A program made the translations under genes and the position numbers. From contig CAJQNP010000095.1 in NCBI GenBank assembly GCA_905479705.1, forward strand, positions 1 to 35,815: a stretch of 35,815 nt of DNA, read 5' to 3'. Below, piece by piece: positions 20,854 to 23,240 of this stretch. How positions within the stretch are numbered: position 1 is the stretch's first letter; the number at the start of each line of letters is the position of its first letter. The notes beneath the pieces are model-generated. The model worked only from the letters and a program-made list of their open reading frames with translations. It was not told the DNA's origin and made no database searches. Source of the stretch: an uncultured Gammaproteobacteria bacterium (GTDB lineage Bacteria; Pseudomonadota; Gammaproteobacteria; UBA9214).

Positions 20854-21867
20854 ATGCTGAACGAGATCGAATTCCTGCCCGACGGGCTGCTGGGCACGCC
20901 AGCGGAGAAGCTGGAGGCCCTGCTGGGTGGGCCAACGCTGATGCACCTGCCCGGGCGCCGCCCGGAGCCGTTGTTTGTCACGGTGCTGGCGCACGGCAAC
21001 GAGGGGACCGGCTACTGTGCCGTGCAGCAGCTGCTGCAGGCCTACCAGGACCAGGAGCTGCCGCGTGCCTTATCCGTGTTCTTTGCCAATGTCAGCGCTG
21101 CCAGCAAAGGTCTTCGCTTTCTCGACGGCCAGGCGGACTTCAACCGGGTCTGGCCGGGCACCGAGACCCCTGATGTGCCCGAGGCGCAGATGATGCAACG
21201 GGTCGTCGACAGCATGCAGGCGCGCGCAGCGTTTGCCAGTCTCGATGTTCACAACAACACCGGGATCAATCCGCACTACGCGTGCATCAACCGGGTGGAC
21301 AACCAGTTTCTGCACCTCGCCGCGCTGTTCAGTCGCACGGTGGTGTATTTCATTCGTCCGCTGGGTGTGCAGTCCATGGCGATGTCCTACGTGTGCCCGT
21401 CGGTAACGATCGAGTGCGGCAAACCTGACCAGGAATACGGTGTGGCGCATGCGCGCGATTACATCGATGCCTGCATGCATCTGAGCGAGTTGCCCGAGCA
21501 CCCGGTGGCCTCGCATGACGTGGACCTGTTTCACACGGTGGCGACCGTCAAGGTACCTGAAGCGGTCAGTTTCAGTTTTGAGGATGATGCTGTCGACCTG
21601 CGCCTGGTCGGTAACATCGATCACCTCAATTTCCGTGAACTGCCGGCCGGTACCCGGCTGGGTGGCGTGAACCCCGGTGCGTCTGTGTCGCTGGACGTGT
21701 GTGACGAAAACGGCCACCAGGTGAGCCAGCATTATTTCGCGATCGAGGATGATGCACTGCTGACCACGCGCCCACTGATGCCGTCGATGTTTACCCTGGA
21801 TGAGCGCATTATTCGCCAGGACTGTCTCGGTTACCTGATGGAGCGACTGCTGCCGGAGCGTGGCTAG
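20854..21867 (+). CDS. M14-family zinc carboxypeptidase-like deacylase (succinylglutamate desuccinylase/aspartoacylase type)
   Basis: VLAHGNEGTG, DFNRVWPG, DVHNNTG, VTIECGK motifs. Confidence 0.85.
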   Translation: MLNEIEFLPDGLLGTPAEKLEALLGGPTLMHLPGRRPEPLFVTVLAHGNEGTGYCAVQQLLQAYQDQELPRALSVFFANVSAASKGLRFLDGQADFNRVWPGTETPDVPEAQMMQRVVDSMQARAAFASLDVHNNTGINPHYACINRVDNQFLHLAALFSRTVVYFIRPLGVQSMAMSYVCPSVTIECGKPDQEYGVAHARDYIDACMHLSELPEHPVASHDVDLFHTVATVKVPEAVSFSFEDDAVDLRLVGNIDHLNFRELPAGTRLGGVNPGASVSLDVCDENGHQVSQHYFAIEDDALLTTRPLMPSMFTLDERIIRQDCLGYLMERLLPERG

Positions 21868-21898
21868 TACTCCTTCAACATGATATTGCCGGGTTCAG

Positions 21899-21994
21899 TT
21901 GGTCTGTCAGCGTTCAGGACAAGGCGCACCTCGCAGGGAATGGCCATAGTCCTTTCCAAGAGGTGCAACGCAGGCATGGGCGCTGACAGACCAA
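21899..21994. repeat. Hairpin A of the twin-hairpin element
   Basis: 14-bp perfect outer stem TTGGTCTGTCAGCG (21899-21912)/CGCTGACAGACCAA (21981-21994); inner stem GCACCTC/GAGGTGC; apical GGGAA/TTTCC; loop TGGCCATAGTCC. Confidence 0.85.
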
Positions 21995-22005
21995 CCCTTC
22001 GGGCG

Positions 22006-22097
22006 CGCATGTGGCGCCCTGCAGCGGTGTTACCGCGCTTGACAAGGACTAAGGCCATTGCCCGCGCACGGCGCCTTGCTGCAAAACACCACATGCG
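22006..22097. repeat. Hairpin B of the twin-hairpin element (inverted relative to A)
   Basis: Outer stem CGCATGTGG (22006-22014)/CCACATGCG (22089-22097). Read on the minus strand, the inner stem is GCCGTGC/GCGCGGT (with G-T wobbles), the apical stem GGCAA/TTGTC and the loop TGGCCTTAGTCC. Confidence 0.82.
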
Positions 22098-22139
22098 AGC
22101 TGAACCCGGCAATATCATGTTGAAGGAGTACTAGTCATC

Positions 22140-23240
22140 ATGCCGGCCACGGCTGTTGAGCGCCCGCATGTGTTGCTTGCCCTGTCGGCGCATGGCTACG
22201 GTCATCTCGCACAGTGCGCCCCGGTTATCAATGCCCTGTCGGTCGTGGTGCCGGCGCTGCAGCTGAGTGTATGCAGCACCCTGCCGCAGTCTGTTATCGC
22301 TGATCGAATCAGTATTCCTTGCGATGTGCATGCCGTTGAGCTCGATCCCGTGTTGCAAATGCACTCCGCCTGGGAGGTCGATGCGCCGGCGTCACAACAG
22401 GTCTACCGCGCCTTCCATGAGGACTGGGAGGCGGGCCTGCAGCGTGACCGCCAGCTGTTGCGCGAACTCAATCCGGATGTGCTGCTGGCGGATATCCCCT
22501 ACCGTATCCTGCTGGCGGCAGAACAACTCGGTGTGGCGACGATCGGCCTGTGCTCGCTGAACTGGGCTGCGATCTATTCGGCCTACTGTGCAGGCGATGA
22601 CATGGATACCCGCATGCTGGCACAGATGTTATCGGGCTACCGTGCAGCCGATGTGTTTCTGATGCCGCAACCCGCCATGGCCATGCCGGAACTGGACAAT
22701 GCCCGGGTGATTGGCCCGATCGCGCGCAGCGGCGTGCAGCAGCGCTCCGCTCTGCTAACAGGCGGTGGAATCCCTGTCGATGCCAGGGTGATACTGGTCG
22801 CGCTGGGTGGTATCGAGAGCGAAATGCCGCTGGCGAACTGGCCACGGCTTGAAAACACATGCTGGATTTTTGCCGACGCGGTGCATGCCGAACGGGATGA
22901 CATGCTTGATCTGGATGAACTGTCGATGTCCTTTATCGATGTGCTTGCCTCGGTCGATGTCGTGCTCACCAAGCCGGGTTATGGCACCTATGCCGAGGCT
23001 GTCTGTCACGGTGTGGCGCTGCTTGTGCTGGCGCGCCGCGACTGGCCGGAAACCGCGATGCTGAACCGGTGGGCACAGCAACACGGGCACATCGCCACGA
23101 TCACGCGTGAGCAGTTTCACGGCGGTGGGTTTGTATCCGAGATCGAGGCACTGCTTGCATTGCCGCCCGGGGCCGGGCTGGAACCCACGGGTATCGGCGA
23201 TGCCGTCGCGGTGTTGCGCGAGGCGCTGTCTGCTGATTGA
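22140..23240 (+). CDS. GT-B-fold glycosyltransferase-like protein (MurG/arabinokinase N-domain-like)
   Basis: HVLLALSAHGYGHLAQCAPVINAL N-terminal motif; VILVALGGI; VDVVLTKPGYGTYAEAVCHGVALLVLARRDWPET donor-binding-like segment. Confidence 0.75.
   Translation: MPATAVERPHVLLALSAHGYGHLAQCAPVINALSVVVPALQLSVCSTLPQSVIADRISIPCDVHAVELDPVLQMHSAWEVDAPASQQVYRAFHEDWEAGLQRDRQLLRELNPDVLLADIPYRILLAAEQLGVATIGLCSLNWAAIYSAYCAGDDMDTRMLAQMLSGYRAADVFLMPQPAMAMPELDNARVIGPIARSGVQQRSALLTGGGIPVDARVILVALGGIESEMPLANWPRLENTCWIFADAVHAERDDMLDLDELSMSFIDVLASVDVVLTKPGYGTYAEAVCHGVALLVLARRDWPETAMLNRWAQQHGHIATITREQFHGGGFVSEIEALLALPPGAGLEPTGIGDAVAVLREALSAD

Follow-up and report, generated by a model that had tools for sequence, protein, structure and literature searches.

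Two opposed hairpins within a larger palindrome

In the window, the 35,815-nucleotide stretch of DNA from an uncultured Gammaproteobacteria bacterium analysed here, two hairpins of opposite orientation lie between two codirectional genes 272 bases apart, which raises the question of what they are and in which nucleic acid they fold. A preliminary description of the two hairpins had proposed that their stems carry compensatory changes, that a folded nucleic acid is under selection, and that each arm may act from its own strand. All the stems that it named were present in the sequence, and their folds were computed. Hairpin A (21,898–21,997, plus strand) consists of an outer stem TTGGTCTGTCAGCG/CGCTGACAGACCAA, an inner stem GCACCTC/GAGGTGC (21,926–21,932 pairing with 21,960–21,966, the inner stem and apical part spanning 21,926–21,966), and an apical stem GGGAA/TTTCC. 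Hairpin B (22,001–22,100, minus strand) consists of an outer stem CGCATGTGG/CCACATGCG, an inner stem GCCGTGC/GCGCGGT with two G-U pairs, and an apical stem GGCAA/TTGTC with one. The apical loops are TGGCCATAGTCC in A and TGGCCTTAGTCC in B, and the apical sequences that follow the family consensus are AATGGCCATAGTCCTT (21,939–21,954) and, on the minus strand, AATGGCCTTAGTCCTT (22,044–22,059). Compared with shuffled sequences, A read on the plus strand and B read on the minus strand gave z values of −4.8 and −3.4, respectively, and no shuffle folded as well in either case. In contrast, B read on the plus strand folded poorly (z = −1.06), no better than many shuffles.

Both hairpins are enclosed by a larger palindrome that the preliminary description had not seen. 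A 47-nt inverted repeat (21,861–21,907 and 22,091–22,137) is 89% complementary, and the terminal inverted repeats within it, 21,864–21,898 on the plus strand with the end CTAGTACTCCTTCAACATGATATTGCCGGGTTCAG and 22,100–22,134 on the minus strand, are complementary at 35/35 positions. The whole palindrome, including the flanking CTAG copies, covers 21,864–22,134; assuming a duplication of TA (21,865–21,866 and 22,132–22,133), the element proper is 265 bp long (21,867–22,131). The left TA, within CTAG, supplies the T and A of the TAG stop codon of the upstream gene (20,854–21,867, plus strand), an open reading frame encoding an AstE/AspA-like protein (PF24827). The downstream open reading frame (22,140–23,240, plus strand), which has no NCBIfam or Pfam match, begins 6 bases past the end of the element. 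At the right end, the terminal repeat finishes with GGAGTACTAG (22,125–22,139), placing a GGAG 11 bases 5′ of the downstream ATG; the insertion may thus supply the ribosome-binding site of this gene, within the stem of the full palindrome. A pattern scan for an intrinsic terminator or a promoter within the element found neither.

Compensatory changes across homologous arms

Two arms alone are insufficient to establish compensatory change; hence the evidence was taken from homologous arms of the family. The consensus over 119 arms was gCaAGgCgc-stem-cGcaGgn-AATGGccntagtCCTT-nnCAAG-stem-GcAACgcnG, in short gCaAGgC, a stem, GcaG, an apical AATGG..CCTT, CAAG, the second strand of the stem, and GcAACgc. 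Among 42 diverse arms, 88% of the cells were paired, and 31 of the 39 pairs had changed on both sides, a count reached in 0/500 shuffles. These arms had a covariation score of 0.637; shuffles scored 0.210, and slid structures did not exceed 0.137. In the inner stem, every pair that varied in the family had changed on both sides. Finally, 394 double-changed cells were counted, whereas 200 simulations in which sites evolved independently on a tree gave no more than 137; the tree and rates used were rough. The homologues thus confirmed the compensatory changes and supported the proposed selection on a folded nucleic acid.

Two variations of the module were observed in other copies. In some arms (in L049, L093, L095, L111, L144, L161, L038, and others), the internal loop carried a 22-nt insertion, CCAACAGTAGGCGCTTTAGGCG. 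Its 21 instances, from 14 distinct contexts, all separated CA from A, some in the 5′ and others in the 3′ strand of the loop. In L047 (47–248) and L076 (293–508), the two core hairpins had the same orientation instead of being opposed.

Wobble pairs indicate the strand that is constrained

A transition at a G-C pair gives G-U or A-C about equally often, and only G-U still pairs. Each arm was read in its own sense, and the two outcomes were counted as cells of alignment columns and as parsimony changes on the tree. The inner and apical stems of the 119 arms contained 148 G-U and 10 A-C cells; as the copies share ancestry, such cells are not independent, a problem that the tree counts (59 changes from Watson–Crick to G-U vs. 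9 to A-C) lessen and do not remove. The excess of G-U over A-C was observed in A-type arms (36 vs. 4), B-type arms (60 vs. 5), and other subfamilies (52 vs. 1); for the inner stem of A-type arms taken alone, the counts of 8 and 3 were not significantly different. At some stem positions, G-U was the commonest type of pair. The terminal repeats had no wobble bias, with 19 G-U and 26 A-C cells. This asymmetry indicates a constraint on each arm to pair as a single strand when read in its own sense, which supports the earlier suggestion that each may act from its own strand. In this respect, the terminal repeats resemble the double-stranded ends of transposons, and the arms resemble single strands that fold, one from each DNA strand.

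Because G-T is also better tolerated than A-C in single-stranded DNA, the nature of this strand has to be inferred; RNA is the most likely. The main rival to a role in transcripts is that the arms fold and function in single-stranded DNA, for instance on the lagging strand, and are bound by a DNA-binding protein of the host or of a mobile element. One sense hairpin per DNA strand would suit such a strand-symmetric role, and the tolerance of G-T fits it as well. However, IS630 and IS5 transposases, which are implied by the ends described below, are double-strand DDE enzymes and need no single-strand step, and positions at which G-U is the commonest pair suit RNA better. We consider recognition as single-stranded DNA unlikely.

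A further explanation is that palindromic DNA itself gives rise to the paired changes, with template switching copying one arm onto the other in the absence of any selection on folding. The terminal repeats, differing between elements, matching within each, and lacking wobble bias, look like products of such copying. Copying would not favour G-U in the strongly one-sided manner found in the stems, nor would it hold the unpaired CAAGGC, GCAG, CAAG, and GCAAC fixed over dozens of families. As the origin of the stems, template switching is quite improbable, and a strand-specific constraint on a fold remains the preferred reading.

The element is one copy of a MITE family

In two genomes of the same genus (G003 and G004), the two flanking genes lie a few bases apart around a single CTAG, without the element. 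These empty sites indicate that the element was inserted at this locus, with duplication of TA or CTAG; the two are indistinguishable in the window because CTAG is palindromic. A duplication of TA only was evident from near-identical dispersed copies in G141, a single-contig genome with approximately 20 copies located by their ends: four of these, compared with copy L291, were 99.6% identical over 265–271 bp and had only TA in common outside the repeats. The bases directly inside the TA were the same (GT...AC) in all 27 distinct elements compared from the window's subfamily. The element occurs once in the window's own genome, and related sequence was identified in 19 of the 96 genomes of a relatives search that included this genome.

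The element therefore has terminal inverted repeats, a target duplication with an empty site, dispersed copies, and ends in common with autonomous insertion sequences (ISs). We concluded that it is one copy of a mobile, non-autonomous transposable element family, that is, a MITE. At 265 bp it is too short for a transposase gene and hence has none inside. Its interior is not a deleted transposase gene, consisting of two opposed copies of one conserved hairpin. By eye, one G141 copy (L323, G141:C1 at about 458052) was seen just upstream of an AstE/AspA-like gene, which is likely to be related to the gene that precedes the window copy.

IS630-type ends and candidate partners

The ends of the window copy (GTACTCCTTCAACATGATATTG) were identical at 27/35 positions, counted by eye, to the right inverted repeat (CTAGTACTCCATCAACATTGTATTGATGGATAAAG) of an IS630-family IS in G269 (L382), and at 23/35 positions to the inverted repeat of L347. 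The latter is a 1248-bp IS630-family element in G211 with a transposase matching NF033545 (148 bits) and PF13358, and its 33-nt inverted repeats, CTAGTACATCGACCAGTTTATATTGACGGATAG, match MITE ends at up to 30/35 positions. The transposase of L347 (1367–2614) is split into two overlapping frames of 183 and 231 amino acids, which points to a programmed frameshift or to decay of this copy. A homologous IS630 element with similar ends, CTAGTAGTCCTTCAATAAGATAAATTAGG, was found in G004, within the window's genus. L347, L378, and L382 are IS630-type ISs that share their end type with the MITE, and the likeness of the ends identifies the window element as an IS630-type MITE. Judging from these ends, the window copy was most likely moved in trans by an IS630-type transposase into a CTAG site, with duplication of TA. 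A search of the window's own genome for an IS630 transposase close to that of L347 found none; this genome has one other DDE_3 gene. The IS630 elements of G141 were rejected as the partner of the TACTAAGACAA subfamily, their ends being TTATTGAGCCTTGCATAAAT.

The same module between different ends

In Shewanella and Gilvimarinus, the same core lies between GGAAGGTGCGAAYAAG or GGAGCCTCTGATTAA ends and is flanked by 4-bp duplications of TTAG, CTAG, or similar sequences, with an identical 4 bp on both sides in 4/6 Shewanella and 2/4 Gilvimarinus copies. The Shewanella end, GGAAGGTGCGAAYAAG, equals the left end (IRL) of ISKpn26 (PMC10569121) over 14–16 nt. IS5-like ends and a 4-bp duplication at CTAG/YTAA, the same IS5-type target, are known from MITEPsy1 (PMC3189936). 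Both subfamilies accordingly have IS5-type ends together with a 4-bp YTAR duplication, as found in IS5-driven MITEs. A search for the IS5 transposase domain (DDE_Tnp_1, PF01609) gave no match in G096 and G098 and two matches to the domain in G097. With this domain absent from two of the three genomes searched, DDE_Tnp_1 was rejected as the partner that now serves the GGAGCCTCTGATTAA and GGAAGGTGCGAA subfamilies, and the autonomous partner of the IS5-type subfamily may have been lost. In the IS5-type subfamilies (L097, L113, L124, L154, and L163), the CAAGGC/AACGC internal loop tends to be retained in the second arm, whose apical sequence differs.

At least seven kinds of ends were distinguished among 132 non-redundant elements by a rough motif grouping that left 37 unclassified and one class mixed. 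Only the IS630 and IS5 kinds were tied to a transposase family, and several end types were assigned to such families by sequence likeness alone. The retention of the module with IS630-type, IS5-type, and other ends makes recognition of the ends by a transposase improbable as its job. It suggests to us, at somewhat less than even odds, a selfish structured-RNA module that is carried as an inverted pair, so that either strand gives one active hairpin, and that would spread in Pseudomonadota by repeatedly joining up with ends that belong to unrelated transposases, among them IS630 and IS5. Evolution would in that case keep the folded arm and not the terminal repeat.

These ends also bear on two other explanations. 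An inverted pair of hairpin units dispersed in genomes is formally REPIN-like, and the element could be regarded as a REP/REPIN family member moved by RAYT (Y1) transposases. This is very improbable, as the element is approximately 265 bp long, compared with 20–40 bp for a REP (PMC3733652), and has target duplications and long terminal repeats common to IS630 or IS5 elements. A host regulatory RNA of this two-gene locus, which the position between codirectional genes and over the upstream stop codon might suggest, is hardly credible, since same-genus relatives have both genes with few bases between them and no element, and copies elsewhere adjoin unrelated genes.

Distribution of the family

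A covariance model, R1, was built from this family and scored hairpins A and B of the window at 100.1 and 96.5 bits, respectively; close matches are expected for such a model, whereas wide matches at 60–100 bits are not. R1 matched 116 of 370 gammaproteobacterial genomes (E up to 0.001), about a third, in 91 genera, and many of these genomes had at least 11 scored candidates. Across the phylum, 65/398 genomes were matched (E up to 1e-4), some outside the window's class. No match was obtained in 18 genomes of other groups, each with a chance match to the 16-base loop pattern.

Database searches returned no known family. Searched with Rfam at gathering and relaxed thresholds, the window gave only chance miRNA-type matches, none above the gathering score, and over 20 distant loci Rfam identified two neighbouring tRNAs and nothing over the hairpins. 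The window copy had no match among phages and only 23–27-base matches among plasmids. With the Shewanella subfamily as the query, approximately 100 bases at 86% identity were found on conjugative Klebsiella and E. coli plasmids (NC_021667.1 and others), under an annotated transporter gene. Topic searches of the literature returned related MITEs only. In open-access papers searched for the element sequences, the family was undescribed; ISfinder and most subscription papers were outside this scope, and an earlier description as a local repeat in some species is possible. MITEs as a kind of element are known; what is new is the hairpin module with its exchangeable ends, and the family is apparently undescribed.

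Genomic context and proposed role

With simple and hence approximate ORF calling, just one of the 106 usable copies fell within a gene, and the copies were located near the 3′ ends of genes. By the same calling, codirectional, convergent, and divergent neighbours were about as frequent as in the background. The stronger arm was in sense in 33 of 56 codirectional cases, and the copies had no clear bias of orientation or context.

Summarizing the above results, we put at roughly 70% the reading that the locus carries one copy of a widespread IS630-type MITE with strand-specific foldable hairpin arms that may have a job at the transcript level. After placement in CTAG by a transposase acting in trans, with duplication of TA, the opposed arms, one optimised for each strand, would provide any transcript across the element with one good hairpin. 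The hairpin would then have its effect in the host transcript, perhaps limiting the damage of landing between co-transcribed genes or adjusting the expression of flanking genes. By analogy with the RNA of Correia/NEMIS elements, we tentatively propose that the hairpins act in host transcripts independently of orientation, which seems possible rather than probable.

Comparison with known systems clarifies what is unusual here. The RUP element of Streptococcus pneumoniae, an IS630-Spn1 MITE, is likewise short and non-coding, with IS630-family-like ends, TA termini, and tightly folded transcripts (PMC2229807, PMC3049150); it is 107 bp long with one simple fold, whereas the present element has approximately 265 bp and two opposed conserved hairpins, is spread over many bacterial families, and is also combined with further kinds of ends. 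The Correia/NEMIS elements are likewise MITEs that have TA at their termini, terminal repeats, and RNA folds acting on adjacent mRNA via RNase III, but they differ in sequence and length (107–155 bp) and are known from Neisseria only; the papers cited for them describe no opposed hairpin module (PMC2229807, PMC2649163). ERIC and YPAL/RU-2 of enterobacteria share the palindromic form, intergenic position, and transcript-level structure (PMC2229807); they are shorter and have other sequences, whereas the module described here goes with several kinds of ends. MITEPsy1 and IS5-type MITEs resemble the Shewanella subfamily in ends and target (PMC3189936), but MITEPsy1 is 100 bp long and, as far as described, has no such hairpin pair. 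REPINs and BIMEs are also inverted pairs of hairpin units in high copy; their units are far smaller, are moved by Y1 RAYT enzymes, and lack long IS-type terminal repeats.

MITEs are usually seen as IS remnants defined by their ends, whereas here the interior is the conserved part: a hairpin with strand-specific wobbles in each arm, associated with at least two transposase systems and absent from Rfam in all copies scanned. The family is also a warning for structured-RNA searches, as strong covariation need not imply a host RNA gene. If the module acts in RNA, one covariance model would flag very many sites at which a mobile RNA domain could change the host's transcripts; the purpose of the interior of a MITE would also become testable.
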